This document shows positions 3,942 through 49,869 of a stretch of DNA of 64,000 nt, piece after piece. Origin of the DNA: Methylobacterium organophilum (GTDB lineage Bacteria; Pseudomonadota; Alphaproteobacteria; Rhizobiales; Beijerinckiaceae). A program made the position numbers and the translations under genes. A model generated the notes under the pieces. It searched no databases. It was not told the DNA's origin and saw only the letters and a list, made by a program, of their open reading frames with translations. The DNA is taken from assembly GCF_022179465.1 (NCBI RefSeq), contig NZ_BPQV01000001.1, positions 372,001 to 436,000 on the forward strand. The letters are read 5' to 3'. Each line of letters begins with the position of its first letter. Positions within the stretch are counted from its first letter, which is position 1.

Positions 3942-4568
3942 TCAGGCATGCGCGAAGATGTCGCTCTCCGACCAGCCGGCGAGGTCGAGCTTGGCCCGGG
4001 TCGGCAGGAAGTCGAAACAGGACCGGGCGAGCTCGGTGCGGCCCTCCCGGGCGAGCATGGTGTCGAGCCGGTCGCGGGCGGCGTGGAGATGCAGCACGTC
4101 GGAAGCCGCGTAGTCGAGCTGGGCCTGGCTCAGGGTGTCCGCGCCCCAATCCGAGGATTGCTGCTGCTTGGAGAGATCGACGCCGACCATCTCGCGCACC
4201 ACGTCCTTCAGGCCGTGCCGGTCGGTATAGGTGCGGGCGAGCTTCGAGGCGATCTTGGTGCAGTAGACCGGCCCCGGCATCACCCCGAGGGCGTGGAACA
4301 GCACCGCGAGGTCGAAGCGGGCGAAATGGAAGATCTTCTGCACGCCCGGATCGGCCAGCACGCCCTTGAGCACCTCCGGCACGGGGCCGCCGGGCACGAT
4401 CTGCACCACGTCGGCGCTGTTGTCGCCCTTGGAGATCTGCACCACGCACAGACGGTCGCGCAGGGGATTGAGCCCGAGCGTCTCGGTATCGACCGCGATC
4501 GCGCTTCCGGGCTCGAAGCTCGCGGGGAGATCGCCGCGGTGGAAGCGGATGGTCGGCGCTGCGGACAT
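3942..4568 (-). CDS. rnd: RNase D-type 3'-5' exoribonuclease, short form
   Basis: This is a DEDD-family 3'-5' exonuclease, probably acting in RNA maturation. The 208-residue product consists of the catalytic fold only and lacks the C-terminal HRDC domains of E. coli RNase D. The short form is common in alphaproteobacteria. The acidic residues are visible in order: VDTETLGL (Asp and Glu, motif I), HFARFDLAVLF (Asp, motif II) and the Tyr/Asp of LDYAASDVLHLH (motif III). I chose the ATG at 4566-4568 (MSAAPTIRFH), where similarity starts; an ATG 48 bases upstream adds only a polar leader. It precedes lptC on the same strand by 221 bp and may be transcribed separately. Confidence 0.88.
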   Translation of the reverse strand: MSAAPTIRFHRGDLPASFEPGSAIAVDTETLGLNPLRDRLCVVQISKGDNSADVVQIVPGGPVPEVLKGVLADPGVQKIFHFARFDLAVLFHALGVMPGPVYCTKIASKLARTYTDRHGLKDVVREMVGVDLSKQQQSSDWGADTLSQAQLDYAASDVLHLHAARDRLDTMLAREGRTELARSCFDFLPTRAKLDLAGWSESDIFAHA

Positions 4569-4686
4569 CGTGTCGGGTCTGCGATCGTTCCGGGGAGACG
4601 ATTCGGCGCCTAGCATCCGGAAGCCCGGAGGGAAAGGCGTCCGACGGCAAGGCCGACGCGCGGACAGCGCCCCGCGCCCTCGTCCC

Positions 4687-6102
4687 CTAGCGTTTCCAGA
4701 CGCCGAGGCGCTCGCTGCGGGCGTGGTCCTCCGCCGCGATCAGCTCCGGCGTGGCCTCCGAGGAGGCACGGCCGCCGCCATTGAACAGCACCACCTCGGA
4801 AAGGTCGCGGCTCTCCACCGTACAGGTATGGGCGCTGCTGCCCGGGGCGGGCAGGCAGGTGACCTCGCGGCCCGCCAGATATTTGGTCAGCTCCTCGGCC
4901 TGGCCGCCGCGGACCCACTCGACGCCGAACAGGTGGACGACCTTGCCCGCCACCCGCAGGGTCGCGGTGTCGATCACCTCCGCCGGGCCGCGCAGCTCGT
5001 TGGGGTTGCGGGACGGGGCGGGCAGCTCCTCGCCCTCGGGCGGCTGCTCCTCGGTATCCGCCGGGGGAGCCTTGGCCTGGGAAGGGGGCTTGGCCTGGGA
5101 AGGGGCCTGGGCAGGGGCCTGGGAAGGAGGCGGAGCAGGCGCCTTGGCCGGCCGCGGCGCCTCCGTCGAGGCCTGCGGCTTCGGTGCCGTCGCCTCCTCT
5201 TCGTCGCCCCCCGAGACCAGCACCGCCGCGACCACCGCCAGGGCCGTGAGGCCGGCGAACCCCGCGAGCAGCGTGCGGCTCCGGCGCGCGCCGTCGCCCT
5301 GGTCGCGCCAGCCGAATCCCTGCGCGCGATCGAGCAGCCGGTGGCGCCCCTCGCGCAGCCGGTCGCCGGCATCGGCGCCCAGGCGGCGCAGGCGCGTCAG
5401 GCCGGCCGCTCCGAGGCCGGGCCGATCGCCCTGCGGCGGAGGCGAAAACGGAGGCGGGCCTTCGAGCCCCTGCGCCGCCGCGGCGGAGGCGACCGGCGGG
5501 GCCTCTTCGGCGGGGGCGGGAACGGGATACGGCGGGGAGGGGGCGAGGCGGCGGTCACGCCGCGCGCGCCAACCCTCGAAGGCCCCGCTCGCCGCGCTGG
5601 CCATCGCCCGGCCCCGTTCCGCAGAGCGGTTCGCGAAGGAGCGCGCCAGGGCGGATTGGGTCTCGACGAACCGGGCGCTCGCGGCCTTCACCTCGGCGAG
5701 AGGGTCCCGGGGCGGCTCGACCGGCTCGGGCGCGGGCTCCGGGATCGGTGCGAACAGCGCCGGATGGCGCGCCCGCAGCTCCGCAACGAGATCCTCGAGG
5801 GTGAAGGGGACGGGCTCGGCCGGCACCGCAGGCGCCGGCCCGGCCTTCTTCCGGCTCTTCTTTTCCTGAAACGGGTCCGCCGCCGGCACGGGGCGCATCC
5901 GCGGCGCGCCGTGCCGGTCGACGACCCGGTAGCCCGGCGCCTCCTCGGTCGGCTCCGTCGCGGCCTCGACCATCAGGGCCAGGGTCTGGCGGGCGAGGGG
6001 ATGAGCGCGCTGGCGATCGAGCTCGGCCAGGATCAGGCCGCGCAGGCGCGCCTCCTCGTCCGCCGTGGGCAGGAAGACTGTGGAGGCGCCAGCACTCGTC
6101 AT
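4687..6102 (-). CDS. Membrane-anchored protein with C-terminal nuclease-like (SNase) domain
   Basis: The 471-residue product begins at ATG 6100-6102. Residues 1-270 are a Pro/Ala/Arg-rich cytoplasmic region with a helical segment (about 135-185). One membrane helix spans about 277-297 (LLAGFAGLTALAVVAAVLV). A Pro/Ala/Gln linker with SQAP/SQAK repeats follows, then a domain from about 365 to the end resembling staphylococcal-nuclease/thermonuclease folds (VIDTATLRVAGKVVHLFGVEW, then EDHARSERLGVWKR). The Arg and Glu expected at the nuclease active site are not obvious, so it may bind rather than cut. The predicted topology places this domain outside the cytoplasm. It lies 20 bp upstream of the next minus-strand stop and probably shares its transcript. 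Function unknown. Confidence 0.75.
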   Translation of the reverse strand: MTSAGASTVFLPTADEEARLRGLILAELDRQRAHPLARQTLALMVEAATEPTEEAPGYRVVDRHGAPRMRPVPAADPFQEKKSRKKAGPAPAVPAEPVPFTLEDLVAELRARHPALFAPIPEPAPEPVEPPRDPLAEVKAASARFVETQSALARSFANRSAERGRAMASAASGAFEGWRARRDRRLAPSPPYPVPAPAEEAPPVASAAAAQGLEGPPPFSPPPQGDRPGLGAAGLTRLRRLGADAGDRLREGRHRLLDRAQGFGWRDQGDGARRSRTLLAGFAGLTALAVVAAVLVSGGDEEEATAPKPQASTEAPRPAKAPAPPPSQAPAQAPSQAKPPSQAKAPPADTEEQPPEGEELPAPSRNPNELRGPAEVIDTATLRVAGKVVHLFGVEWVRGGQAEELTKYLAGREVTCLPAPGSSAHTCTVESRDLSEVVLFNGGGRASSEATPELIAAEDHARSERLGVWKR

Positions 6103-6122
6103 CGCCGCGTCCGGATCCGTTC

Positions 6123-6938
6123 TCAGGCGCCGCGTCCCGGGGCGAGTCCGCTCAGGGTCGGGCCGTAGCGGCGCAGCACGCGGCTCGACTCGCCGACGAT
6201 CAGCGGCCGGCCCTCGGCGAAGCTGACGGTGAGCGTGAGCTCGGCCACGCCGCTGGAGCGGGCGCCCCGGGCAGGGTTCGATGCGGTGAATTCGACCGGC
6301 ACGCGCACGATGCAGGTGGCGGAGGCTGCGTGGCAGGCGGTGCGCATGGCGCGCTCCTGCGGCTCGTAGCGCCGCTCGGGCCAGCGCCGGCCGAAGCGGC
6401 GCTTCTCGGCCATGATCGCCGCGAGGGTCATGGTGCGGCCGTGGAAGCGGACCTGCGGCGCGTAGAAGCGCGGGGCGGCGCCGACGAAGGTGTCGTTGCC
6501 GGAGGAAACGGTGCGCAGGTAATCCGTCGCGACCTGCTGCGTGGTGACCGCCCAATCCGCGAAGCGCGGATCGGAGGCCGGCGCCTCCGCGGGCACGGGG
6601 ACGGGGACGACCAGCGGGGGCGCCATGCGCCGATGCGCCTCGCCCCGGTCGCGCCGGGAGAAGCGCAGCCGGCCCCGGTGCCCCTCGGGGGGGGCCGCCT
6701 CGGCCGCGCGCCGGGCGGGAGTGGTGTGGGCGGCGGGCCTCTCGGTGCGCACCGCGGGGCTGCGCGTCCCCTCGGTCTTCTCCGCCGCGGCCTTCGGCGC
6801 CTCCGCGGGCGTCGCCTTCCCGGGCGCCGGCTTGGCCGGGGGGTCGACCCAGCCTCCGGCCTGCTGCGCCACGGCCGGCAGGGCGCCGCCGAGGACGGCG
6901 AGGAGGACGAGATGGGAATACCCGGCTAGGCGGCGCAT
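6123..6938 (-). CDS. Exported protein of unknown function, possible NTF2/SnoaL-like domain
   Basis: The 271-residue product starts at ATG 6936-6938 with a signal peptide (MRRLAGYSHLVLLAVLGG, cleavage near AVAQQ). A long low-complexity Pro/Ala/Arg/Glu region runs from about 30 to 115. A folded C-terminal part follows (FADWAVTTQQVATDYLRTVSSG, APRFYAPQVRFHGRTMTL, then VPVEFTAS and GVAELTLTVSF). The pattern of a helix, 'FYAPQVRFHG' and beta strands recalls NTF2/SnoaL-like cone folds, but that is a weak resemblance. It is followed by the SNase-like membrane gene 20 bp downstream, so the pair may act together in the envelope. A start 102 bases upstream is possible but would bury the signal peptide. 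Confidence 0.7.
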   Translation of the reverse strand: MRRLAGYSHLVLLAVLGGALPAVAQQAGGWVDPPAKPAPGKATPAEAPKAAAEKTEGTRSPAVRTERPAAHTTPARRAAEAAPPEGHRGRLRFSRRDRGEAHRRMAPPLVVPVPVPAEAPASDPRFADWAVTTQQVATDYLRTVSSGNDTFVGAAPRFYAPQVRFHGRTMTLAAIMAEKRRFGRRWPERRYEPQERAMRTACHAASATCIVRVPVEFTASNPARGARSSGVAELTLTVSFAEGRPLIVGESSRVLRRYGPTLSGLAPGRGA

Positions 6939-7201
6939 GACGTCATCCGATCGCAGCGATAAGGGAACGCGAGACAAACGCCCCCGGGCGCCCGCACGGT
7001 TCCACCCCGCCCGGGAACCCGCGCGGCGTGGCCCGGGCATGCCACGGGAGCGCGAGCCTCGGCAAGCTGAGGGTGTAGGCCCCCGTGCCCCATGTGAATC
7101 ATGGCAAAACCGCGCCGTTTGCCCTTGCCCTCGGCCCCGAAGAGCCCACCTTGAGCGTGCCCCGGGTCCGGGCCCCTCTGGCGGTCGAGGCGTCGGCCGT
7201 G

Positions 7202-8185
7202 ATGTCGGATCCCCGTTGGAGCCAGCGCAGACGCGGCGCGACCCCTGATGCGAGCGGCCCTTTGACCGCCTCTTCGCTGCCCGAGCGGCGCGCCCTCCTG
7301 ATCGTCAACCCGAAGGCGCGCAACGGCGCCGCGCCCTTGGACGAGATCCGCGCCGCGCTCCGCGCGGGCGGCATCACCCCGATCGAGCCCGAGCCCGACG
7401 ATTGCGTGGCGCTGATCGAGCGCCATGCCCGCGCCTGCGACCTCGTCGTCCTCGGCGGCGGCGACGGCACCATGAACCATGCCGCGCCGGCCCTCGTCGC
7501 GAGCGGCCTGCCCCTCGGCATCCTGCCCCTCGGCACCGCCAACGATCTCGCCCGCTCGCTCCAGATCCCCCTCGACCCGGTCGCGGCCGCGCGGACGATC
7601 GTCACGAACGATCCGAAGCCCGTCGATCTCGGCTGGGTCAACGGGCATTACTACTTCAACGTGGCGAGCATCGGCTTCTCGGCGGATCTCGCCGGCGAGC
7701 TGACGGCGGATGCCAAGAAGAAATGGGGCACGGTCGGTTACGCCATCGCCGCCTTCCGCCTGCTCCGCCGCGCCCGCCCCTTCACGGTGACGATCGAGCA
7801 TGACGGCCAGACCGAGAAGGTGGTGACCATCCAGGCCTCGGTCGGCAACGGGCGCCATTACGGCGGCGGCATGACGGTCTCGGAGAGCGCGACCGTCGAC
7901 GACGGCAAGCTGGATTTCTACAGCCTGGAGGTCGCCCATTGGTGGCGGCTGCTCGCCCTGCTTCCGGCCCTGCGGCGGGGCACACAGGGCGAGGCGGCGG
8001 ATGTGCGCGCCTTCCGCACCACGGAGATCCGGCTCACCACCCGCAAGCCGCGGCCGGTGAACACCGACGGAGAGCTGACCACGCAGACGCCGGCCCATTT
8101 CAAGGTGGTGCCGAGGGCGGTGCGCATCTTCGCGCCCGAGCACGGCACGCGCCCGCCCGAAAGCCGCTTCCCGCTTCCCTTCTGA
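7202..8185 (+). CDS. Diacylglycerol/lipid kinase family protein (YegS-like)
   Basis: This is a DAGK-catalytic-domain protein that would phosphorylate diacylglycerol or a sphingoid-type lipid using ATP. The 327-residue product shows the nucleotide-binding start [12 protein letters not shown], the glycine-rich [10 protein letters not shown] motif and the [12 protein letters not shown] motif. The second beta domain follows ([35 protein letters not shown]). I chose ATG 7202-7204, about 11 bases after a GGTCGAGG stretch; an ATG at 7085 would add 39 residues without conservation. It is followed 20 bp later by terC, so the two are probably co-transcribed. The lipid substrate cannot be read from sequence. 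Confidence 0.88.
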
Positions 8186-8205
8186 CCCGAGAGACGAGCC
8201 TGCCC

Positions 8206-8949
8206 GTGGACAGCCTCCTTCAGCTCGCCGCCGACCCCGCCGCCTGGGCGGCGCTCGCCACCCTGATGGTGATGGAGGTGGTGCTCGGCATCGACAACCT
8301 GATCTTCATCTCGATCCTGACCAACAAGCTGCCGCAGGCCCAGCAGGCCACGGCGCGGCGCACCGGCATCGGCCTCGCCCTGATCCTGCGCCTCGCCCTG
8401 CTCGGCACGGTGGCCTGGATCGTCCATCTGACCGAGCCGGTCTTCGCGATCCTCGGCAAGAGCTTCTCCTGGCGCGACGCGATCCTGATCGCCGGCGGCC
8501 TGTTCCTGCTCTGGAAGGCGACCAAGGAGATCCATCACAGCGTCGACCCGGACGGGGGCGAGAGCGGGGAGAAGGGCGCCCCGCTCGGCTTCGCGGCGGC
8601 GATCGGCCAGATCCTGGTTCTGGACCTCGTCTTCTCGATCGACTCGATCATCACGGCGGTGGGCATGACCGAGCACGTGCCGATCATGGTGATCGCCGTG
8701 GTGGCCGCCGTGACCGTGATGCTCGTCGCCGCCGATCCGCTCTCGCGCTTCATCGCGGCCAACCCCACGGTGGTGATGCTGGCGCTGGGCTTCCTCATCA
8801 TGATCGGCATGACGCTGATCGCCGAGGGCTTCGGCGCCCACGTGCCCAAGGGCTACGTCTACACCGCCATGGCCTTCTCGGCGGGCGTGGAAGCCCTCAA
8901 CATGCTGGCCCGCCGCCGCAGGAAGAAGGGCGCGGCGGGGGACGCCTGA
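8206..8949 (+). CDS. TerC-family integral membrane protein
   Basis: TerC proteins are multi-pass membrane proteins tied to metal-ion (especially manganese) efflux, metalation of secreted proteins and tellurite resistance. The 247-residue product has about seven hydrophobic helices and the acidic family motifs [15 protein letters not shown] and [17 protein letters not shown], where the Asp residues are thought to bind the ion. A GTG at 8206-8208 is the best start: no in-frame ATG fits the family N-terminus, and GAGA-type purines precede it. The upstream kinase gene ends 20 bp before. The gene ends just ahead of a hairpin that separates it from the convergent TonB receptor. Confidence 0.9.
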
Positions 8950-8957
8950 GTGGGGCG

Positions 8958-8981
8958 GGGCGCTTCCGAAAGGAGGCGCCC
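8958..8981. terminator. Hairpin between convergent terC and TonB receptor genes
   Basis: A 10-bp stem (GGGCGCTTCC with GGAGGCGCCC, one G-T pair) closed by a GAAA tetraloop lies between the terC stop and the stop of the convergent receptor gene. There is no strong T tract, so it may work as a bidirectional, imperfect intrinsic terminator. Confidence 0.6.
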
Positions 8982-8989
8982 GGCGGTGC

Positions 8990-11218
8990 TTACCAGCGGA
9001 AAATCAGGCTGCCGATCACCGTCGCGGGAGCGCCGCGGTAGCAATAGCCCGTCTGACAGTTCGTGTAGTTTCGGTCGAGGATGTTGTAGCCGTTGATCTG
9101 CGCGCGCCAGCCCTTGTAGCTCGGGTCGATGGCCGCGAAGTCATAGGAGACGAGGGCGTCGAACAGGGTCACGGTCGGATTGCGGACCGTGTTGAAGTCG
9201 TCCGCGAAGCTGTTCGTCGTGAACCGCGTGCCGCCACCGATGGTCAGGCCGGCGAGGGGCGAGGAGGGCGGGAACAGGTAGGTAGCGAAGGCCGTGAAGG
9301 TGTCGCCCGGAATGCCGGAAAGCTGGTTTCCGTCGACCGAGTAATAGCCGCCGCGATTGGGGTCGTAGGCCGTCTGATTGACGAATTGAAAGTTGAGATG
9401 CGTGTAGGACAGCGTCAGGTTGGTGCCGGGCGCGAAATTCGCGATCATCTCCATCTCGAAGCCGCGGGAACTGACCTCGCCGGTCGCCACGGTATTGACG
9501 ACGTTGGTCGGATCCGTACGCAACAGGCTGGATTGCCGGATGTCGAAGCCGGCGACCGCGGCCGTGATGTTCGTGCCCGGGATCTGGTACTTCACGCCGG
9601 CCTCGATCTGGTCGCCGGTCGCAGGCTTAAAGGGTTGGTTCGTAACGATGTTGACGCCGGGCTGCGGCGTGAAGGTCGTCGCATAGCTCGCATAAGGCAC
9701 CAGCCCGGGCGCCAGTACGTAGCCGAGGCCGACGCGCCCGGTGAAGGCGCTGTCGTTCTGGCTGCCCGTGCGCGCGCCCGTGGCATCGAGGCTGTCCTGG
9801 TTGACCCAATCGTGGCGGCCTGTCAGCGTCAAGATGAAGCGATCGAACTTCATCTGGTCCTGCAGGTAGACACCAATTTGGTCCTGTACCTGCCGGGAGG
9901 TATCGCCGAGCAGGGGCGAGGCGATGAACTGCCGCCCGTAGTTCAGATTGACGAGATCAAGATCCGGAGCGGGACCGAATCCGGACCGCGTACCGAAGCT
10001 GTAGTGGGTGTAGTCGAGCCCTGCGACAGCGACATGCTGGATCGGGCCCGTGTCGAAATGGCCCTCGATCTGATTGTCGAGGGTCGTCTGCCGCAGCGCC
10101 TCCCGCAGCCGGCCAACGGAGCGGGTTCCGATCGTGCGTGCATCGTTGATCGAATCGATCGAGGTATACTTGAAATCGACGAACGTGCCGTAGTGCCGGA
10201 AGTTCTGCCGGAAGATCAGGTCCGGCGTGAATTTGTGCTCGAAGGCATAGCCGATCCGGTACTGCTCCTGCTTCACGTCGTTGAAGGCTGCATCGCCACT
10301 GTAGAACCGGCTCACCCGGAAGCCGGGATCGTTGTAAAAGAAGGCCGTGCCCGGCACCGTCGAGGTCTGGTACTCGCTGAGGAAGGTGAAGGTCGTGTCG
10401 GCCGAGGGCTTCCAGGTGAAGGCCGGCGCGATGTTCACGCGGTCGTCCTTGGCACCGGGCAGGAACGTGTCCGACTGGCGGGCGACGCCGGTGAGACGGT
10501 AGGCGAGCGTGCCGTCGCTACCTTGGACCGGGCCGCCGAAATCGAAATTGCCCTGATAGCGGTCGTAGTTGCCCGCCTGCAGGATCATCTCGCCGAATTG
10601 GGTAAAGACCGGCCGCTTCGTCGTCACGTCGAGGATGCCGCCCGGTGAACCCAGGCCGTAGAGACCAGCCGCAGGCCCACGCAGGATGGTCACGGATTCG
10701 AGGCCGTAGGGCTCGATCCGCGGCAAAGTCAGGTTCGCCCCCACCTGGCGCAGGCCGTCACGGAAGATGCCGTTGTAGGTGACGTCGAAGCCGCGGATCG
10801 AGATCGAATCGAAGCGCGGGTCGTAGCCGGCGATGTTGACGGCCGCGCCGGGCGTGTAGGCGAGCGCCTCGCTGAGCGTCTGTACGTTCCGGTCGTTCAA
10901 CTGCTCGCGAGTCACGACGGAGACCGATTGCGGCACTTCGATCAGCGGCGTGTTGGTCTTGGTCGCGGTCGGGCTGATGCGGGCGGTGTAGCCGACGATC
11001 CCGCTTGGGCCGCCGCCGCCGCCACTCGTCGCGGAACCGTCGACCGGGGCCGCCACGTTGCCGGAGCCCTGCGCCGTCCCCTGCGTCCGGCTGCCCTCCA
11101 CGGAGATCGTCTCCAGCGTCGTCGCCTGCTGGGCGAGGGCGGGGCTGGTCAGGGCCGTGCCGAGGAGGAGGAGCGTCGCGAGGGGACGAGGGGCGGCGGG
11201 ACGGATGCGCGACGGCAT
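8990..11218 (-). CDS. TonB-dependent siderophore receptor (FhuA/FoxA-like)
   Basis: This is an outer-membrane 22-strand beta-barrel receptor that would import a ferric siderophore using TonB energy. The 742-residue product has a signal peptide (MPSRIRPAAPRPLATLLLL to ALAQQ) and a TonB-box-like start (LETISVEG). The plug domain follows (VPQSVSVVTREQLNDRNVQTLSEAL, ISIRGFDVTYNGIFRDGLRQ, ESVTILRGPAAGLYG, PGGILDVTTKRP). A barrel then ends in ILDRNYTNCQTGYCYRGAP and the terminal aromatic LIFRW typical of BamA substrates. The plug motifs match the hydroxamate-siderophore receptor subfamily, but the ligand is not determinable. No transporter gene is adjacent; the FecCD-type ABC importer lies 24 kb away. 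The upstream region is AT-rich and carries a possible Irr-type operator. Confidence 0.93.
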   Translation of the reverse strand: MPSRIRPAAPRPLATLLLLGTALTSPALAQQATTLETISVEGSRTQGTAQGSGNVAAPVDGSATSGGGGGPSGIVGYTARISPTATKTNTPLIEVPQSVSVVTREQLNDRNVQTLSEALAYTPGAAVNIAGYDPRFDSISIRGFDVTYNGIFRDGLRQVGANLTLPRIEPYGLESVTILRGPAAGLYGLGSPGGILDVTTKRPVFTQFGEMILQAGNYDRYQGNFDFGGPVQGSDGTLAYRLTGVARQSDTFLPGAKDDRVNIAPAFTWKPSADTTFTFLSEYQTSTVPGTAFFYNDPGFRVSRFYSGDAAFNDVKQEQYRIGYAFEHKFTPDLIFRQNFRHYGTFVDFKYTSIDSINDARTIGTRSVGRLREALRQTTLDNQIEGHFDTGPIQHVAVAGLDYTHYSFGTRSGFGPAPDLDLVNLNYGRQFIASPLLGDTSRQVQDQIGVYLQDQMKFDRFILTLTGRHDWVNQDSLDATGARTGSQNDSAFTGRVGLGYVLAPGLVPYASYATTFTPQPGVNIVTNQPFKPATGDQIEAGVKYQIPGTNITAAVAGFDIRQSSLLRTDPTNVVNTVATGEVSSRGFEMEMIANFAPGTNLTLSYTHLNFQFVNQTAYDPNRGGYYSVDGNQLSGIPGDTFTAFATYLFPPSSPLAGLTIGGGTRFTTNSFADDFNTVRNPTVTLFDALVSYDFAAIDPSYKGWRAQINGYNILDRNYTNCQTGYCYRGAPATVIGSLIFRW

Positions 11219-11307
11219 GCGGAACTCTTGCTTCAGATTAAGGGGCTGGCCGGACGATGTCCGGGCAGCGCCCCCTCCGCAAGAAAAATGACGATATAAT
11301 TCAAATA

Positions 11308-11324
11308 CTTAGACTAATTACAAA
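11308..11324. promoter_or_regulatory. Possible Irr (ICE-box-like) operator upstream of TonB receptor
   Basis: In the AT-rich region about 90 bp upstream of the receptor start is CTTAGACTAATTACAAA. Against the rhizobial ICE consensus TTTAGAA-N3-TTCTAAA it matches 10 of 14 defined positions. Irr regulates iron uptake in this order. The match is imperfect, so this is a suggestion only. Confidence 0.35.
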
Positions 11325-11512
11325 CTGACATTGCGGCGGATTTAGCCTTGCCCGCTCAGGATGTTACGCCCCTCTTTAGAGTCGGACCAGTCAAGCGCGC
11401 CCGTGCGAAGATGATCGTCGTTGTGTTCCGGCAACAGGCGGCCGACGCTAAAGGAGGGAGGGGAGGCCCATGCCCCCTCCCTCCATTCTTCTGGCGCGCG
11501 CCGCCCGGCCCC

Positions 11513-13015
11513 TCACAGGCTGCCCGGCCCCTTGGCGAGCCCCGCGAGGGTGAACAGATCCACCGAGAGCTTTGCGCCGACCACCAGCGTGTCGGGGATG
11601 TTCTTCGGATAGAACGGGAAGCGGGTCTGGTCGGGGTTGATGATGTATTGCAGGTTCGGCGTCAGCCGGATCGCGGGCGTGACCTGGATGCCGTAGTTGA
11701 CTTCCATCATGATCTGCTGGGTCGGGATCGAGCGGGTAAGGCCGATCGCGGCCTGGGCCGCCTCGATGTTGGAGAGCGCCAGCGGGCTGAATTTCTGCGT
11801 GTTGATGACGAAGCCGACCGTGTCGTAGGGCCGGCCGGTGAAGGTGCCGGTCTGCAGGGCGCCGATCTCCAGGAAGTAATCCTCGTTCAGCCGGCCGGAG
11901 GTGCCGGCCATGGCGACGCCGAACAGGGTCAGGCCCTGCACGCCGTTGGGATCGGGCCGCCAGACCATCTGGTCGAAGCGGGCGTAGATCCCGGAGCGGC
12001 CGAAGCGCGTGGCGAGCGGCAGGCCGGTCAGCACGGCGCGGTTGCCGGTGATGTCGCGGACGGGATCCGCATAATCCGAGGCATCGACCCAGCCGCCGAT
12101 GCCGTAATTGCGCGGCAGCGCGTCGTTGGCGAAGGTCGTCGAGTAGCCGAGCTCGAAGGGCACGATGGCGCCGGTCGCCCCCTTGGTCGAGAAATCGAGG
12201 CCGTTATCCCCCGGCTGCTGGTGGAGCGGGTTCACCTCATAGGCGCCGACATGGAAGAACACCTTGTCGGTGAGCCAAGCCTTGGCATGCGCCCCCCAGC
12301 TCGAGACCGGCCAGAAGGTGAAGTTCGAGGTCTTGAAGACGAAGGTCGGGTTGCCGCAGGCGGAATTCGTCTGGAAATTGCAGTAGATCGGCGAGTTCAG
12401 GAAGGCGATATTGGCCACCAGCCGGCCGAACTCGATGTCGAGGCGGTTGTCGAACAGCTTCTGCTGGTAGGAGAACAGCGTCAGCCGGGTGGTCTGGCCG
12501 CCGCCATAGATCTCCTGCACCGAGGTGTTGTTGCCGATGGAATCGTCCGCGAGGCTGCGGCCGTGGCGGTTCGTGACCGCGATGTGGAACGAGCCGCCCT
12601 CGATCCCGGCGAGCCGGTTCAGGTCGCCGTCGATGCCGAAGAAGACCTGGCCCGCCCAGGCCGAGCCCTGGCGGAGGCCGCCGATCGGGTTGATCGCCCC
12701 CTGGCCGGTATAGTTCAGGAGGAAGGAGAGCCCGTTGCCGAGGTCGAGGGTGCCCGGCGGCACGGCCGGCGGCGTCGCGGTCTGGCCGAGGGCGTCGGCA
12801 GCGCCCGCCGCCGTGCTGGCCCCTGCGAAACCCTGGCCATCCCGCGGGCGGCGCGTCCCCCGGACGCCGGCCCGGCGGAGCGCCGGCCGTTGCACCGTGG
12901 CGGGAACGCCGATGCCCGTCCCGGCCGCCGCCGGCGTCTCCTGCGCCTCGGCCACGGATCCCGGCCCCGCCGCGCCGAGGCCGAGCGCGGCCACGACCAA
13001 CCAATGCCCCTTCAT
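11513..13015 (-). CDS. oprB: Carbohydrate-selective porin OprB
   Basis: OprB proteins are 16-stranded outer-membrane porins that admit mono- and disaccharides. The 500-residue product starts at ATG 13013-13015, preceded by a strong AAGGGGGA ribosome-binding site, with a signal peptide (MKGHWLVVAALGLGAAG) cut near AEAQE. Family features include GLSFLLNYTGQG, VFFGIDGDLNRLAGIEGGSFHIAVTNRHG, NNTSVQEIYGGGQTTRL and the ending IRLTPNLQYIINPDQT. A 70-residue disordered Ala/Pro/Arg stretch precedes the barrel. It follows fruA on the same strand with a 149-bp gap, so it is likely the outer-membrane entry point for fructose, either in the fru operon or from its own promoter. Confidence 0.92.
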   Translation of the reverse strand: MKGHWLVVAALGLGAAGPGSVAEAQETPAAAGTGIGVPATVQRPALRRAGVRGTRRPRDGQGFAGASTAAGAADALGQTATPPAVPPGTLDLGNGLSFLLNYTGQGAINPIGGLRQGSAWAGQVFFGIDGDLNRLAGIEGGSFHIAVTNRHGRSLADDSIGNNTSVQEIYGGGQTTRLTLFSYQQKLFDNRLDIEFGRLVANIAFLNSPIYCNFQTNSACGNPTFVFKTSNFTFWPVSSWGAHAKAWLTDKVFFHVGAYEVNPLHQQPGDNGLDFSTKGATGAIVPFELGYSTTFANDALPRNYGIGGWVDASDYADPVRDITGNRAVLTGLPLATRFGRSGIYARFDQMVWRPDPNGVQGLTLFGVAMAGTSGRLNEDYFLEIGALQTGTFTGRPYDTVGFVINTQKFSPLALSNIEAAQAAIGLTRSIPTQQIMMEVNYGIQVTPAIRLTPNLQYIINPDQTRFPFYPKNIPDTLVVGAKLSVDLFTLAGLAKGPGSL

Positions 13016-42523: not shown

Positions 42524-43384
42524 TCACGGCCTGGGCAGATTGATGTCCGGCAGGGCGCCCTGGGGCAGGGTGCCCTGGGGCAAGGCCCCCTGCGGCAGCT
42601 TGGGGCCGGGCCGGGCGGCGGGCTTGGCGGCCTTCGGCTTGGCCGCCCCCGCCTTGCCGGCACCGGGATCGGCCGGAGCCCCGGCCTCCGCCATCGGGTC
42701 GGGCCGGCGCTTGGGCGGCGGCAGCGCCTTGGCGGCGGGCGCGTCCTCGCAGGCCTTGAAGGCGAGGCGGGCGATCGCGGCGCCGTCCTCGGCGACGAGG
42801 TTCAGGCTGTCGGGCAGGCTCACCAGAGTCTCGTCCCAGCGGACCGTGCCGCCGAGCACGCCTTCCAGCGTCGCCGGCGAGGCGCCCCGGCGCAAAGCCG
42901 TCAGGTCGGGGCCGTAGAGGGTGGCGATCTTCGCCCCGACCACGACCTGGAGCACCCGCGTCTGGTCCGGCGTCAGGGGGCGCAGGGGATTGTCGACGCT
43001 GATCAGGCCGCTGCGGCTCACCCAGAGATCGAGGTTCCTGGCCCCCTCGTAATGCACGGCCTTGCCCGGGTCGCAGGCGACGGGCGGCGCGGCGAAGGGA
43101 GTCGCGGAGGGCGGCGGCGCCTCCGCCTTCGCCGCGGCGGGGGGGGCCGCGTTCTCGGGCTTCGCCTCCGTCCGGCCCTGCGCCTCCGCAGCGGGCGCGG
43201 GCGTGTCCACGGGCTTCTTTTCCGCAGGCCTGGGCCTGGGTTTCGGCTTGGGCCGGGGCGGTTTGGCGGCGGGGGCGGCCTGTTCGGCGGGCGGGGGCGG
43301 CATCTCCGCATCCTGCGCCGCGGCGCCGAGGCTCAAGGCCGCAAGCCCCGCGAGACCCGCCAGAGCGGGGAAGGTCGCTCTCAT
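42524..43384 (-). CDS. Exported proline-rich protein of unknown function
   Basis: The 286-residue product has a signal peptide (MRATFPALAGLAGLAALSLG, cut near AAAQD). A disordered Pro/Ala/Lys/Glu segment (about 25-95) follows. A folded middle (HYEGARNLDLWVSRSGLISVDNPLRPL and DQTRVLQVVVGAKIATLYGPDL) carries the only recognisable structure. A C-terminal repeat LPQGALPQGTLPQGALP ends the protein. It overlaps the upstream 101-residue membrane gene by 4 bases (ATGA), so they are translationally coupled. No known family. Confidence 0.72.
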   Translation of the reverse strand: MRATFPALAGLAGLAALSLGAAAQDAEMPPPPAEQAAPAAKPPRPKPKPRPRPAEKKPVDTPAPAAEAQGRTEAKPENAAPPAAAKAEAPPPSATPFAAPPVACDPGKAVHYEGARNLDLWVSRSGLISVDNPLRPLTPDQTRVLQVVVGAKIATLYGPDLTALRRGASPATLEGVLGGTVRWDETLVSLPDSLNLVAEDGAAIARLAFKACEDAPAAKALPPPKRRPDPMAEAGAPADPGAGKAGAAKPKAAKPAARPGPKLPQGALPQGTLPQGALPDINLPRP

Positions 43385-43881: not shown

Positions 43882-46812
43882 ATGCCCCTGGAGGACCGCC
43901 CCGAGACGCACCGGATCGCCGATGAGGGTGCCGGCGGGTCCACCGTCCCCGATTCGCCCGACGCGCTGGAGAAGGCGCTGCTCGACCTCATCGCCCAGTC
44001 GCGCGGCCAGGCGGCGGAGGATCCGTTCCGCAACCCGGTCCTGGCGGTGACGCTCGCCATCACCCGGCGCCTCGACCGGGGCGAGATCGGGGAAGAGGAT
44101 CTCGATGCCCTGTTCGTGAGCCTGCGCCGCCACGCCCTCACGGAGCGGGCCGCCCGCCTGCGCGGCTATGTCGGGCTCGACGGGGACACCGCGGAGACGA
44201 TCGCCGACCTCGCCGAGCGCCTCGTCGCGGCGATCCCGAAGCGCTCGGGCGATTTCGAGACGTTCCGCGACCTCGTCGGGCGCACGGCCTTCGCCGTGGT
44301 CTTCACCGCGCATCCCACCTTCGGCATGCCCAAGGCCGTGGCCGAGCTGATCGCCGCGGCGGCCTCGGAGCGGGACGAGGCGGCCCGTGTGCCCCTGATC
44401 GAGAAGGCGGCCCAGCGCTCGACCCGGCCCGATGCCCGCATCAGCCTGGACGACGAGTTCGCGCAGGCCTGCCTCGCCGCCAATAACGGCCGCCTCGCCC
44501 TGGACGCCTTCAACGGCGCCCTGATCGATGCGGCCCAGAGGCGCTGGCCCGACCGCTGGACCGAGCTGGTGCCCCGGCCCTTCGCCATCGCGAGCTGGGT
44601 CGGCTGCGACACCGACGGGCGCACCGATATCGGCTGGTGGGACACCCTGCGCTACCGCCTGATCTCCAAGCGCATGCAGCTGGAGCGCCTGCAGCGCGAC
44701 CTGCCCGACGTGCCCGCGACCCGGGTGGTGCGCGAGCTGGCCGCGGGGGCGCTGGCCGCGGTCAACCGCCAGCTCGCCGGGGCGCCCCTGCTCGGCACCA
44801 AGCCGTCGCTGGAGAACGTCCACCGCTTCGCCCTCGCCCTCATCATCGAGCGCGAGCGCGCCCAGCTCGATGCCGGCCCGATCCTCGCCGGGCTCGCGGC
44901 CGCCCTCGGCGCCGCCGAGACCGATGCCGACCGGCGCGCCATCGCGGTGCTGCGCTCGGGCGTGGCCGCCCACGGCCTCTCCAACGCCCTGCCGCATTTC
45001 CGGCTGAACGCCAGCCAGATCCACAACGCCGTGCGCCGGGTGATCGACCTCGAGGGCGAGCCGACGGATGCCGCCCAGCGCCGCACCCATCTCTCGGCGA
45101 TCCACACGCTGCTCAACGACGTGAAGCCCGTGGCGGTGGATTTCGGGGCGCTCGCCGCCGAGCGCGCCTCCGCGGCGCGCCTGATGATGACGATCGCGCA
45201 GATCCTCAAGCACGTCGACGGCTCGCACCCGGTCCGCTTCCTGATCGCGGAGACGGAGACCGGCTACACCCTGCTCGCCGCCCTCTGGCTCGCCCGCCAC
45301 TACGGCATCGCCGACAAGCTCGAGATCACCCCCCTGTTCGAGACGGCGAGCGCCCTGGAGCAGGGCATCCGCGTGCTCGACGATGCCCTGCGCAACCCGC
45401 ATTGGCGCACGCATCTGAAGCGCCTCGGCCGGCTCTCCGTGCAGTTCGGCTACTCGGATTCCGGGCGCTATGTCGGCCAGCTCGCCGCCACCTTCTGGAT
45501 CGAGCGCCTGCGCCTGCGCATCACCGAGATGATGGCGCAGAACGACCTGAAGGATGTCGAGCTCGTCATCTTCGACACCCACGGCGAGTCGATCGGCCGG
45601 GGCGCCCACCCGACCTCCCTGCGCGACCGCCTCGCCTATCTCGCCCCGGAGGATGCGCGCCGCCGCAACCGGGCGGCGGGGCTGCGGACGCGGCTCGAAT
45701 CGAGCTTCCAGGGCTCGGACGGCTACCTGATGTTCGGCACCCCCGCGCTGGCCGCGGCCTCCGTCTCGCGCATCGCCGAGCACGTCTTCGCCGACGACCT
45801 GCGCGAGGACGACGCCTTCTCCGACTACGTCCTGACGGAGGCGGGCACGAAGGCGGGCAGCGACGAGGATCCGATCTACGCCGAGCCCGACTTCGCCGCC
45901 GAGTTCTTCCGCTCCGCCCGGCAGGACATGGAGGCCCTGGTCGAGGATCCGGGCTACGCGGCCCTGCTCGGCACCTTCGGCCCGAGCCTGATCGACCGGA
46001 CCGGCTCGCGCCCCGTCGCCCGCCAGTCCGATTCCGGCGGGCCGGCCATGATCACCCATCCCCGCCAGATGCGGGCGATCCCCAACAACGCCATCCTGCA
46101 GCAGTTGGGCTTCCTCGCGAATTCCCTGCACGGCATGGGCCGGGCCGCGCATCGCGCCCCGGAGACCTTCCGGCACATGCGCGAGGAATCCGTGCGCTTC
46201 TCCCGGGCCTTCCGGCTGGTGCAGCACGCCGCGAGCGTCGGCGATCTCGACGTGCTGCGCGCCTATATCGACACGCTCGATCCCGCCGTGTGGCTGGAGC
46301 GGGCGCGCCGGACGCAGCGCGAGGGACGGCGCGAGGAACTGCTCACCGTGGCGGGCGCCCTCGACCGGCTGAACCTCGCTCCGGATCTGCGCCGCCTGTT
46401 CGGGCGGCTGACCCGCGACTGGCTCTACCTGCAGGCGGCCGCGCCCGACCTCGCAACCATGTCGCCGCGCCTGACCCTGCTCCACGCGATCCGCCTCGCC
46501 CTGATCCACCGGATCTGGTTCCTGGCGGTGCATATCCCGAGCTTCCGGCCCCAGGCCGGCATCACCCGCGAGATGCTGCTGGAGCGCTTCCTGCGGCTCG
46601 ACATCGACGGCTGCCTGCAGCTTCTCGGCGAGATCTACCCGATCACCCCGGACCCGACCCTGGGCCTGAATTTCGGCGAGCCCCCCGGCCCGCGGGATGT
46701 CGGCACCTACGAAGCCGAGCATGCCACCCTGTTCCAGCCGATCCGGGGGATGTTCGAGCGGGTGCGGGAGCTCTCCGGCATCATCCAGCACGAGGTCGGC
46801 GCCTTCGGCTGA
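43882..46812 (+). CDS. Phosphoenolpyruvate carboxylase-like protein, divergent active site
   Basis: PEPC adds bicarbonate to PEP to form oxaloacetate. This 976-residue protein is PEPC-like over its length (SRPVARQ and RQMRAIPNNAILQQLGFL near the C-terminal half, and TAHPT with H144). Key motifs differ from functional PEPC. TAHPTE has Phe in place of Glu; the usual GWVGGDRDGNP reads SWVGCDTDGRTDIGW. GYSDSxKD reads GYSDSGRYVG (R529 for the Lys). FHGRGG reads FDTHGESIGRGAHP (D565 and H567 replace the His and Arg). The C-terminal QNTG is missing (it ends EVGAFG). It may be a second, altered carboxylase or a non-carboxylating paralogue. The ClC gene follows 77 bp later. Confidence 0.85.
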   Translation: MPLEDRPETHRIADEGAGGSTVPDSPDALEKALLDLIAQSRGQAAEDPFRNPVLAVTLAITRRLDRGEIGEEDLDALFVSLRRHALTERAARLRGYVGLDGDTAETIADLAERLVAAIPKRSGDFETFRDLVGRTAFAVVFTAHPTFGMPKAVAELIAAAASERDEAARVPLIEKAAQRSTRPDARISLDDEFAQACLAANNGRLALDAFNGALIDAAQRRWPDRWTELVPRPFAIASWVGCDTDGRTDIGWWDTLRYRLISKRMQLERLQRDLPDVPATRVVRELAAGALAAVNRQLAGAPLLGTKPSLENVHRFALALIIERERAQLDAGPILAGLAAALGAAETDADRRAIAVLRSGVAAHGLSNALPHFRLNASQIHNAVRRVIDLEGEPTDAAQRRTHLSAIHTLLNDVKPVAVDFGALAAERASAARLMMTIAQILKHVDGSHPVRFLIAETETGYTLLAALWLARHYGIADKLEITPLFETASALEQGIRVLDDALRNPHWRTHLKRLGRLSVQFGYSDSGRYVGQLAATFWIERLRLRITEMMAQNDLKDVELVIFDTHGESIGRGAHPTSLRDRLAYLAPEDARRRNRAAGLRTRLESSFQGSDGYLMFGTPALAAASVSRIAEHVFADDLREDDAFSDYVLTEAGTKAGSDEDPIYAEPDFAAEFFRSARQDMEALVEDPGYAALLGTFGPSLIDRTGSRPVARQSDSGGPAMITHPRQMRAIPNNAILQQLGFLANSLHGMGRAAHRAPETFRHMREESVRFSRAFRLVQHAASVGDLDVLRAYIDTLDPAVWLERARRTQREGRREELLTVAGALDRLNLAPDLRRLFGRLTRDWLYLQAAAPDLATMSPRLTLLHAIRLALIHRIWFLAVHIPSFRPQAGITREMLLERFLRLDIDGCLQLLGEIYPITPDPTLGLNFGEPPGPRDVGTYEAEHATLFQPIRGMFERVRELSGIIQHEVGAFG

Positions 46813-46889: not shown

Positions 46890-48716
46890 ATGAAGCCCCT
46901 TCCCCTCCGTCCCGCCCGGGCTCTGGTGCACGCGCCCGCCCGGCTGCGGGCGCTGGTGCGGGGCAACGAGGTCGGGCTCGTCCTGCTCGCCGCCGTGACC
47001 GGCTGCCTCGCCGGGCTCGCCGTCGCCGGCATGAGTGCGGCGACGCAGGGCCTGCGCGAAATCCTCTACCGCCTGCCCGACGGCACCCGGCTCAGCGCAG
47101 TGAGCGAATTGCCGCTCTGGCTCCATGGCGGGCCCGCCCTCGGCGGGCTGATCCTCGGGCTCCTGGTGATCCTCGCCGGGCGGGTCCGCCGGGGCCGGCG
47201 CCGGGCGGTGGTGGATCCGATCGAGGCCAACGCCCTGCATGGCGGACGGATGTCGCTGCGCGATTCCGCCTATGTCGCCCTGCAGAACGTCCTCTCCAAC
47301 GGGTGCGGCGCCTCGGTGGGGCTGGAGGCCGGCTACACCCAGATCGCCGGCGGGATCGCCTCGCGGCTCGGCATCGCCTTCGAATTGCGGCGCTCGGACC
47401 TGCGGACGCTGGTCGGCTGCGGCTCGGCCGCGGCGATCGCGGCGGCCTTCGGCTCGCCGCTCACCGGCGCCTTCTACGCCTTCGAGCTGATCATCGGCAC
47501 CTACACCATCGCGACCCTGACGCCGGTCGTGGTCGCGGCCCTGTGCGGCAGCCTCGTCGCCCGGGCGCTGGTGACGCAGGCCGCCTTCGTGGACGTGAGC
47601 GGGCTCGCCGCCACCGCGACCGGGCGCATCACCGCCGCCGACACCCTGCCCTGCCTGGTGCTCGGCCTCGTCTGCGCCCTGCTCGGGATCCTCCTCATGC
47701 GCGGGGTCGCCCTGGTGGAGCGCGCCTTCGAGGCCACCCGCCTGCCCGGGGTGCTGCGGCCGATGCTCGGGGGCGCCTGCGTCGGGGCGCTCGCCTTCGC
47801 CACGACGCCGCAGGTGCTTTCCGGCGGGCACGGCGCCCTGCATCTCCACCTGGAACACGCCGCCGCGCTCTCGGGCGCCGGGGCCCTCGCCGGGCTGCTC
47901 GTCGCCAAGGCGGCGGCCTCGGCGATCTCGATCGGCTCCGGCTTCCGCGGCGGGCTGTTCTTCGCCTCGCTGTTCCTGGGGGCGCTCGCCGGCAAGCTCT
48001 TCGCGGTTCTCGCCCCGCTGGCATGGCCGGGCTTCGAAGCCTTCGCGTTGACGCCCGTCGCCTATGCCGTTGTCGGCATGAGCGCGCTCGCCGTCGCCAT
48101 CATCGGCGGCCCGCTCACCATGACCTTCCTCGCCCTCGAAATGACCGGAAGCTTTCCCGTGGCCGGCCTTGTGCTTGCCGCCGTGATCGCATCCTCGCTG
48201 ACCGTGCGGAAGACCTTCGGGTATTCTTTCGCCACCTGGCGGTTCCACTTGCGCGGCGAGAGCATCCGCTCGGCCCACGATGTCGGCTGGATCCGCAACC
48301 TCAGCGTCGGGCGCCTGATGCGCAAGGACATCCGGCCCGTCCCCCTCGATACCCCCCTCTCCGTCTTCCTGCGGGAGCATCCCCTCGGCTCGCCCTCCCG
48401 CGTCGTGGTGGTGGACGGAAAGGGGCGCTATGCCGGCATCGTCCTGGTCCCGGAGGCGCATGCCCTCGTCGGCAGCGGGGAGGAGGCGCCGGCCCTGAGC
48501 GACGTGGTGCGCTACGCCGACACCTTCCTCGAGCCGCAGATGAACGCCAAGCAGGCGGCAGCCGCCTTCGACCACGCCGAGAGCGAGGCGCTGGCCGTGG
48601 TCGAGAGCCGGGACAGCCGCAAGGTCATCGGCCTGCTGACGGAGAGCCACACCCTGAAACGCTACAGCGAGGAACTCGACCGCCAGCGCCGGGCGATGGT
48701 CGGGGAGACGGTATAG
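46890..48716 (+). CDS. ClC-type chloride channel/antiporter with C-terminal CBS region
   Basis: The 608-residue product has about ten membrane helices of the ClC fold (to about 440), then a soluble region with CBS-like sequence (SVGRLMRKDIRPVPLDTPLSVFLREHP, RVVVVDGKGRYAGIVLVPE). The selectivity motifs differ from the norm. The first reads GCGASVGLEAGYTQIAG where GKEGPxxH/GREGP is expected, retaining E146 but losing Arg and Pro. The GxFxP motif reads GSGFRGGLFFASLFLGA. This subgroup is known as voltage-gated ClC-type channel proteins in Methylobacterium and others. The ion and coupling (channel or H+/Cl- exchange) cannot be predicted. It follows the PEPC-like gene and precedes a tartrate dehydrogenase gene. 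Confidence 0.88.
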   Translation: MKPLPLRPARALVHAPARLRALVRGNEVGLVLLAAVTGCLAGLAVAGMSAATQGLREILYRLPDGTRLSAVSELPLWLHGGPALGGLILGLLVILAGRVRRGRRRAVVDPIEANALHGGRMSLRDSAYVALQNVLSNGCGASVGLEAGYTQIAGGIASRLGIAFELRRSDLRTLVGCGSAAAIAAAFGSPLTGAFYAFELIIGTYTIATLTPVVVAALCGSLVARALVTQAAFVDVSGLAATATGRITAADTLPCLVLGLVCALLGILLMRGVALVERAFEATRLPGVLRPMLGGACVGALAFATTPQVLSGGHGALHLHLEHAAALSGAGALAGLLVAKAAASAISIGSGFRGGLFFASLFLGALAGKLFAVLAPLAWPGFEAFALTPVAYAVVGMSALAVAIIGGPLTMTFLALEMTGSFPVAGLVLAAVIASSLTVRKTFGYSFATWRFHLRGESIRSAHDVGWIRNLSVGRLMRKDIRPVPLDTPLSVFLREHPLGSPSRVVVVDGKGRYAGIVLVPEAHALVGSGEEAPALSDVVRYADTFLEPQMNAKQAAAAFDHAESEALAVVESRDSRKVIGLLTESHTLKRYSEELDRQRRAMVGETV

Positions 48717-48789
48717 ACATGGGTGGTTGACGCCGGGCTCGGTCCGCGTCACGCGGTGCCGCAAAAATGAGCGGCCCAAGGGAGGTTTC

Positions 48790-49869
48790 ATGTCCGGATC
48801 GAACCGCAATTACCGCATCGCGGTGATCCCCGGCGACGGCATCGGCAAGGAGGTCGTGCCCGAGGGCGTGCGGGTGCTGGAACAGGCGGCCAAGCGCCAC
48901 GGCTTCACCCTGAGCCAGGACTGGTTCGATTTCGCCTCCTGCGACTATTACGAGCGGCACGGGCGGATGATGCCCGAGGACTGGAAGGCGCGGATCGGCG
49001 GCCATGACGCCATCTTCTTCGGCGCCGTCGGCATGCCGGACCGCGTGCCCGACCACATCTCGCTCTGGGGCTCCCTGATCCAGTTCCGGCGGGAATTCGA
49101 CCAGTACGTGAACCTGCGCCCCGTGCGCCTGATGCCGGGCGTGCCCTGCCCGCTGGCGGGCCGCAAACCCGGCGACATCGATTTCTGGGTCGTCCGGGAG
49201 AACACGGAGGGCGAGTACTCGAATGCCGGCGGCCGGATGTTCGCCGGCACCGAGCGGGAATTCGCCGTGCAGGAGAGCGTCTTCACCCGTCACGGCGTCG
49301 ACCGGGTGCTGCGCTTCGCCTTCGATCTCGCCCGCTCGCGGTCGAAGAAGCACCTGACCTCGGCCACGAAGTCAAACGGCATCTCGATCACCATGCCGTA
49401 CTGGGACGAGCGGGTGCGCGAGATCTCGGAAGCCTATCCGGACGTGCAGTGGGACCAGTACCACATCGACATCCTGACCGCGCATTTCGTGCTCAACCCG
49501 GACCGGTTCGACGTGGTGGTGGCCTCGAACCTCTTCGGCGACATCCTGTCCGATCTCGGCCCCGCCTGCGCCGGCACGATCGGCATCGCGCCCTCGGGCA
49601 ACATCAATCCGGAGCGGAAGCACCCCTCCGTGTTCGAGCCGGTGCACGGCTCGGCCCCGGACATCGCGGGCGCCGGGATCGCCAATCCGATCGGGCAGAT
49701 CTGGTCGGGGGCGATGATGCTGGAGCATCTGGGCGAGCGTGACGCCGCGGCCGAGATCGTCGCCGGCATCGAGCGGGTGCTGGCCGAGGGGACCCTGCGC
49801 ACCCGGGACCTCGGCGGCAGCGCGGATACCGAAGCCTGCGGAAAGGCGGTCGCGGAAGCACTGGGCTGA
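48790..49869 (+). CDS. Tartrate dehydrogenase/decarboxylase or D-malate dehydrogenase
   Basis: This NAD-dependent isopropylmalate-dehydrogenase-family enzyme of 359 residues oxidises tartrate or D-malate, with decarboxylation. The start MSGSNRNYRIAVIPGDGIGKEVV is typical of TtuC/DmlA. Other motifs are DFWVVRENTEGEYSNAGG (substrate Arg/Glu/Tyr), SATKSNGISITMPYWDE (catalytic Lys), VASNLFGDILSDLGP (Mg-binding Asp) and HGSAPDIAGAGIANPIGQIWSGAMML. ATG 48790 follows GGGAGGTTTC. It may make oxaloacetate or glycerate from imported acids. The VOC gene follows at 25 bp. Confidence 0.9.
   Translation: MSGSNRNYRIAVIPGDGIGKEVVPEGVRVLEQAAKRHGFTLSQDWFDFASCDYYERHGRMMPEDWKARIGGHDAIFFGAVGMPDRVPDHISLWGSLIQFRREFDQYVNLRPVRLMPGVPCPLAGRKPGDIDFWVVRENTEGEYSNAGGRMFAGTEREFAVQESVFTRHGVDRVLRFAFDLARSRSKKHLTSATKSNGISITMPYWDERVREISEAYPDVQWDQYHIDILTAHFVLNPDRFDVVVASNLFGDILSDLGPACAGTIGIAPSGNINPERKHPSVFEPVHGSAPDIAGAGIANPIGQIWSGAMMLEHLGERDAAAEIVAGIERVLAEGTLRTRDLGGSADTEACGKAVAEALG

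Follow-up and report, generated by a model that had tools for sequence, protein, structure and literature searches.

The window analysed here, a stretch of 64,000 nucleotides of DNA from Methylobacterium organophilum, contains a gene for a protein like phosphoenolpyruvate carboxylase (PEPC) in which the catalytic motifs are rewritten. The gene lies on the forward strand (43882..46812), starts with an ATG that has an AGGA motif 6 bases to its 5′ side, and encodes 976 amino acids; an earlier sequence-only reading of this DNA had given exactly these coordinates. From comparative sequence analysis the gene very probably encodes a functional PEPC, a member of an ancient branch centred on the alphaproteobacteria with an active site built unlike that of the E. 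coli and plant enzymes. The catalytic histidine, both metal carboxylates and the arginines for phosphoenolpyruvate (PEP) and bicarbonate (R396, R587, R699 and R713 in E. coli numbering) are kept, and there is a coordinated set of fixed replacements: K546 has become Arg, R581 His, G583 Glu or Asp, E141 Phe, and W717 Asn, His or Gln.

The PEPC fold spans the whole chain of the window protein. Structural alignment of its model with 1jqn reaches residue 974 of the model and residue 881 of the chain. Sequence identity is 25.0% over 801 aligned residues with E. coli Ppc, and 25.8% over 822 aligned residues with the canonical Ppc of its own genome. The Pfam model PF00311 matches residues 354–578 only, with 74.4 bits against a gathering cut-off of 22.4, and the NCBIfam equivalog model for canonical PEPC (NF000584) gives 77.2 bits against a cut-off of 815. 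The protein lies outside both the canonical PEPC equivalog and the clade of the serine-cycle enzyme Ppc1, and fails their defining features. It is a protein of the PF00311 superfamily and, judged by its sequence, most likely works as a PEPC.

The rewritten active site

Residues were mapped by MAFFT alignment to E. coli Ppc, and the counts given here are from 59 rows of the branch and 34 canonical rows. The branch rows comprise 52 of the 55 branch genomes found outside the genus by a profile search of the class (those with broken contigs, G105, G309 and G336, being left out), four more genomes and three from the genus. All the motifs are on the forward strand. Starting nearest the N terminus, TAHPTF (residues 142–147; 44305..44322) contains the catalytic His144, equivalent to H138 of E. 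coli, and has Phe147 in place of E141; both letters are present in 58 of the 58 branch members with letters at these positions. HFRLN (372–376; 44995..45009) provides R374, Arg in 59/59 and equivalent to R396, which has a role at the phosphate of PEP. PLFET (484–488; 45331..45345) contains E487, Glu in 59/59 and equivalent to E506, a metal ligand. The metal ligand D543 is kept as D526 (Asp in 59/59) within GYSDSGR (523–529; 45448..45468), where K546 is replaced by R529. This column, belonging to the canonical motif GYSDSxKD, is Arg in 59/59 members of the branch and Lys in 34/34 canonical PEPCs. Position 545, Ala in E. coli and Asn in 33/34 canonical rows, is G528, and D547 corresponds to Y530.

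The segment FDTHGESIGRG (564–574; 45571..45603) is probably a mobile loop, with a predicted local distance difference test score (pLDDT) below 50 at residues 568–572. Here R581 of the canonical FHGRGG is replaced by H567 (His in 59/59, compared with Arg in 34/34 canonical rows) and G583 by E569 (Glu in 57 of the 59, Asp in two); R587 is kept as R573 (Arg in 59/59). D565 and T566 correspond to H579 and G580. FQGSDGY (609–615; 45706..45726) is a conserved motif specific to the branch, the QG of which aligns with that of the canonical TEQGE. GSRPVARQ (708–715; 46003..46026), in a loop with pLDDT below 50 at 707–721, keeps R710 (R699) and R714 (R703), each Arg in 59/59. In MRAIPNNA (730–737; 46069..46092) R731 is the equivalent of R713 (Arg in 59/59) and Asn735 replaces W717; in the branch this column is His in 35, Asn in 18 and Gln in six rows, and never Trp. 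The chain terminates with GAFG (973–976; 46798..46809) in place of RNTG.

The alignment to E. coli Ppc confirms the changes that the sequence-only reading had described, of TAHPTE to TAHPTF, GYSDSxKD to GYSDSGRY and FHGRGG to FDTHGE, together with the residues that it listed as kept (H144, the arginines of GSRP and MRAIP, and R573). It had also pointed to the missing terminal QNTG. This is true of the chain but not special to it, as 12 of the 34 canonical sequences have no RNTG or RNSG end; one of the 12 is cut short and nine end in GATG, including the serine-cycle Ppc of the same genome.

The same letters extend well beyond the aligned set. A scan of named genomes gave at least 585 confirmed relatives, of which 80 were kept, 79 with an open reading frame (ORF). 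SD(S/A)GR, (D/N/S)THGE and GRGxHP are each present in 79/79, and FHGRGG in none of the 79. GSRxxxRQ is found in 78 and RAIP in 77; TAHPTF is present in 78, a count that is not independent since loci and ORFs were picked partly by this motif. The window protein carries all six. The rewritten motifs are not chance, with the same letters in all 79 named relatives.

The branch departs at positions that never vary in canonical PEPC (34/34), and this might suggest a pseudo-enzyme or decayed paralogue. We consider this highly improbable, for the active-site letters are fixed across 33 GTDB families, and the decayed-looking proteins found elsewhere in the class lose their motifs in a scattered way. 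Decay was rejected on this contrast between the branch and proteins with weak PF00311 matches. One locus (L178, in genome G443) has two adjacent PEPC-like ORFs on the reverse strand, of 1109 and 1158 amino acids (about 4086–7412 and 7514–10987), with weak PF00311 matches. None of the catalytic motifs scanned for was found in this pair, and L179 is similar; the two ORFs are candidate real pseudo-PEPCs. At L180–L182 the catalytic motifs are kept only in part.

Phylogeny and distribution

In a tree of 117 rows (LG+G4; a rapid search, in which long branches were flagged), a single branch with 100% support splits 34 canonical PEPCs, including E. coli Ppc and the serine-cycle Ppc of the window genome, from 83 proteins with rewritten motifs. 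The window protein falls outside the serine-cycle Ppc clade, and the tree supports the proposal of the sequence-only reading that it belongs to a distinct PEPC branch. A serine-cycle Ppc with odd motifs was rejected as an identity, as the genome has a separate canonical Ppc1 and the tree splits the two. The genus clade is sister (99%) to one made up mainly of Acetobacteraceae and Roseomonadaceae, which also contains Stella, a Methylopila metagenome-assembled genome (MAG) and a Burkholderia plasmid copy. Elsewhere in the same GTDB family, the gene is missing from all seven genomes of other genera that are listed in a draw from the phylum. The placement of the sister clade and the absence from these genera together suggest transfer of the gene into the ancestor of the genus, and the donor may have been Acetobacterales-like.

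A branch profile built from six members (A1) has matches, most of them full length, in 57 of the 385 class genomes searched, one 49-bit cross-hit to a canonical protein (G267) having been dropped. Among 398 genomes drawn from the phylum, all 29 branch matches are to class-mates or closer. The class is the Alphaproteobacteria; two of its genomes, G242 and G393, have proteins identical to ones from Stella sp. and from an Acetobacteraceae bacterium. The most divergent member (G378, locus L177, 7872–10970; 430 bits) forms a long branch outside all the others. It has no PF00311 match listed at an E-value of 1e-5 and is still counted in the branch, where it could represent an intermediate form or another sub-branch. 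A plasmid of the betaproteobacterium Burkholderia pyrrocinia (NZ_CP150851.1, L187) has a copy with about 50% identity to the window protein, between genes for an RraA-family protein and a D-glycerate dehydrogenase; this was probably acquired by transfer. A few branch records outside the class are labelled Nitrosovibrio, Acidobacteria and Solirubrobacterales, and could be binning errors.

Outside the genus the branch form is usually alone. It is the only PF00311 gene in four genomes of the window's order (G037, G038, G044 and G047), and in 11 of 12 named genomes only the branch form is present. Among the genomes drawn from the class, none outside the genus has both forms, where 5.2 are expected (p = 0.003, with no correction for phylogeny). 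For this count a genome was taken as canonical if its best PF00311 match reached 500 bits, as in 38 genomes (the one after these scores 148), and nine genomes with weak or odd matches (G363, G223, G170, G070, G443, G106, G367, G204 and G231) were counted on neither side. In six other GTDB families some genomes have the branch form and others the canonical form. The branch form is also the only one in Acetobacter pasteurianus, A. tropicalis and another Acetobacter, and Komagataeibacter xylinus K2G30 has a single PF00311 gene, of the branch, the product of which (L202) is 47% identical to the window protein.

Archaeal-type PEPC and pyruvate carboxylase were rejected as hidden alternatives within a search of 22 genomes. 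PF14010 gave no match at an E-value of 0.001 in the window genome (G000) or K. xylinus K2G30, and none over its cut-off in any of the 22 (there is one 19-bit match below cut-off in G017). One-chain pyruvate carboxylase is over cut-off in 0/22, K2G30 included, the two-subunit form being outside the reach of the model; partial biotin-carboxylase matches occur in 22/22.

The window genome has two PF00311 genes, one canonical (802 bits) and the window gene (64 bits in this search). Translated ORFs place the canonical gene in the order mtdA–fchA–mtkA–mtkB–ppc–malyl-CoA lyase, the arrangement of the serine cycle. Both forms are present in 10/10 genomes of the genus searched with PF00311. The window gene itself is found in 36/36 genus-mates searched, at 71–85% identity, and a protein in a record of M. 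bullatum, 80% identical, is within this range. G017 has a second copy, which shares 77% identity with the window protein. In G019 (L043, about 5700–8600) the orthologue is in three adjacent pieces in different frames, at 70–84% identity, within a one-contig genome; this is either a broken gene or the result of sequencing errors.

With Ppc1 available to cover carboxylation, the genus-level copy, as distinct from the whole branch, might have drifted to a regulatory or low-activity role. The canonical gene in its serine-cycle run, the regular co-occurrence of both forms in the genus and the fragmented G019 gene are consistent with this, as is the listing of M. extorquens ppc as methylotrophy-specific by mutational analysis (PMC2680597). 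From that listing a second PEPC, if M. extorquens has one, does not take over from Ppc1 during growth on C1 compounds. The cause may lie in expression or regulation, or in a lower activity of the genus copy. Yet drift of the genus copy is unlikely. The gene is kept in 37/37 genomes of the genus searched (in pieces in G019), and 17 checked active-site positions are identical in 36/36 genus copies (G007 and the fragmented G019 being left out). The ratio of nonsynonymous to synonymous substitution rates (dN/dS) is low and similar to that of Ppc1, though NG86 values in a GC-rich genome are of comparative value only, and two of the eight canonical values (0.44 and 0.45) seem too high, an effect perhaps of ORF starts that had not been trimmed. 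Moreover, the duplicate in G017 lies in a run of genes with enolase and pyruvate kinase.

Gene neighbourhoods

The G017 copy (L040) ends a run on one strand that comprises genes for tartrate dehydrogenase, a glycerate 2-kinase type, pyruvate kinase and enolase. Three of these exceed the cut-offs of their models: tartrate dehydrogenase with 492 bits (cut-off 470), pyruvate kinase with 646 (623) and enolase with 682 (300). The glycerate 2-kinase type, at 217 bits, falls short of its cut-off of 550. The run reads as a putative route from tartrate via glycerate, 2-phosphoglycerate and PEP to pyruvate or oxaloacetate. In G037 the branch gene is preceded by genes for an aminotransferase (573 against 650) and a malyl-CoA lyase type (184 against 443), both below the model cut-offs, and then by mtkA (716 against 604, malate-CoA ligase) and mtkB (434 against 336, succinate-CoA ligase alpha subunit). 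An mtkA/sucC–mtkB/sucD pair lies directly 5′ of the branch gene in four genomes of another family and in Phyllobacterium zundukense. In the last, on plasmid NZ_CP104969.1 (L186), the pair is annotated sucC/sucD and the branch gene follows it in an oxalate-use cluster with frc, a gene for a thiamine pyrophosphate-binding protein, and oxlT; the cluster suggests an oxalate assimilation route that would need PEP carboxylation. Three sphingomonad-like genomes have edd and glk 5′ of the branch gene. At the one such locus scored, edd reaches 867 bits (cut-off 708) and glucokinase 245 (cut-off 240), some 0.5 kb 5′ of the PEPC ORF. Where informative neighbours are found, they are predicted to make or consume PEP and oxaloacetate.

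On a Sphingobium plasmid (AP027342.1, L189) a branch member (9587–12331) is annotated only as 'hypothetical protein'; an enolase gene (eno_2) is located two genes upstream, and folD2 and purU are within 8 kb. In two genomes of the window's order (L033 and L036) the branch gene is divergent from a gph-like gene (phosphoglycolate phosphatase).

Within the genus, a gene on the reverse strand for a proline-rich hypothetical protein (42524..43384 in the window, upstream) is found at 36 of 38 loci, including that of the window, and marks a conserved position of the PEPC-like gene. No downstream neighbour is common to most of the 36 genus loci compared, most of which have only 1.5 kb of flank. In the window the next gene on the same strand encodes a ClC-type channel or antiporter with a CBS domain (46890..48716, by Pfam), followed by tartrate dehydrogenase (48727..49869, forward strand; TIGR02089, 596 bits against 470; start uncertain), a relative of which is part of the G017 run at L040. 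The sequence-only reading had noted the ClC gene as a neighbour. This is uninformative, for the adjacency occurs at only one of 38 genus loci, the window's own (two have less than 1 kb of downstream flank), and so ClC is probably not functionally linked to the PEPC-like gene.

Function and relation to known carboxylases

A paper by Benziman from 1969 on PEP carboxylation in Acetobacter xylinum is cited in PMC5259782. The suggestion of the sequence-only reading that the protein may have lost carboxylation, use another substrate or act as a regulator is disfavoured: the rewritten residues are fixed, the branch form is usually alone in a genome, and the informative neighbours handle PEP and oxaloacetate. 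PEPC activity is moreover reported for K. xylinus, and the genome of this species that was tested contains no other form. K546 and R581 are held to bind bicarbonate and the PEP phosphate, and their replacement in 59/59 members might indicate that the whole branch acts on a different substrate or carboxyl donor, such as another enol phosphate, or dissolved CO2 instead of bicarbonate. This is very unlikely, given that the informative neighbours are enolase, pyruvate kinase, malate thiokinase-like genes and edd–glk, that the two PEPC forms replace each other within six GTDB families, and that passages of PMC4047042 report PEPC activity, and flux from PEP to oxaloacetate, in Gluconacetobacter xylinus CGMCC 2955 and a mutant.

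Several observations weigh against a functional PEPC of this kind. The strains of PMC4047042 are not K2G30, and the coupled kit assay described there is weak evidence. The literature yielded no assay of the window protein, nor of a purified branch member whose sequence is known. Aspartate and malate inhibit a PEPC purified from 'Acetobacter', according to PMC5259782, and the canonical aspartate-site residues are not conserved in the branch: K773, R832 and N881 align with V786, D846 and A974 (N881 is also missing from 12/34 canonical rows). Either the inhibitor site of the branch differs or the purified product is another enzyme. It may belong to the branch, the only form in the three Acetobacter genomes named above, and its site for these inhibitors would then have to be unlike the one in E. 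coli. Residue matching is uncertain around R832, as it is around K620, which aligns with E606 by MAFFT and with M617 by HHalign (counted by hand); K620 was left unused as the two disagree. The methylotrophy-specific role of M. extorquens Ppc is a further point. Most loci lack informative neighbours; of 66 compared with a limited panel of reference genes, six have mtkA/mtkB-like genes and two have enolase, with three more having edd–glk, and the mtk, enolase and lyase references are absent around the 80 named loci, including that of K. xylinus. With the genus included, the p value for mutual exclusion is 0.056 instead of 0.003, neither being corrected for phylogeny. Lastly, the Methylopila MAG has both forms, the canonical at 795 bits; hosts with both forms read as methylotrophs.

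For the functional PEPC that we favour, PEP and HCO3− would give carboxyphosphate and enolate, followed by CO2 attack to form oxaloacetate and inorganic phosphate. Arg529 would do the job of K546, and the His567/Glu569 loop may take part of the R581 phosphate clamp. In Methylobacterium the gene may have been kept beside serine-cycle Ppc1 as an anaplerotic PEPC, or one for C3 acids (tartrate or glycerate). More tentatively, the branch could be a second, independently tuned solution to PEP carboxylation, in which an Arg-His-Glu loop (R529, H567 and E569) replaces Lys-Arg (K546 and R581) in handling bicarbonate and carboxyphosphate, and in which kinetics, the preferred form of inorganic carbon or the control by effectors are altered. 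Acetic acid bacteria and many other alphaproteobacteria would then rely on it as their main PEPC, and in some serine-cycle-type runs it would be the carboxylase of the cycle.

Two residues held central to a well-studied carbon-fixing enzyme are replaced across a widespread, functional-looking branch, a natural experiment by which the roles of K546 and R581 become directly testable. The branch also supplies a gene that could account for the PEPC activity long reported from A. xylinum, and enzymes that are possibly regulated differently for C1 and C4 engineering. There is also a warning for annotation, with one member labelled 'hypothetical protein' and the window protein missed by the PEPC equivalog model. 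No description of the branch was found in the literature searched, subscription papers being outside its scope, and a review of the PEP–pyruvate–oxaloacetate node (PMC8100219) lists four main PEPC types, with no such branch in the passages covered.

Compared with canonical bacterial and plant PEPC, exemplified by E. coli Ppc, the window protein has about 25% identity and the changes K546R, R581H, E141F, G583E and W717N. Archaeal-type PEPC (PF14010; 3odm) is about 500 amino acids in length, compared with 976. The 'non-regulated' serine-cycle Ppc1 of Methylobacterium and Methylosinus acts at the same pathway node as the branch, members of which lie next to mtkAB-like genes in G037 and in four genomes from a single family, and the Ppc1 of the window genome is likewise without the terminal Asn. 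However, the motifs of Ppc1 are canonical, it is on the canonical side of the tree, and the window genome holds both. The regulated Ppc2 of Methylosinus trichosporium shares a proposed anaplerotic role; in the part of PMC3615186 that describes it, Ppc2 is well conserved with respect to characterised PEPCs, whereas the window protein is not. The PEPC of Acetobacter/Komagataeibacter xylinus belongs to the same branch, has the same set of motifs, and stands alone in its Acetobacterales genome.

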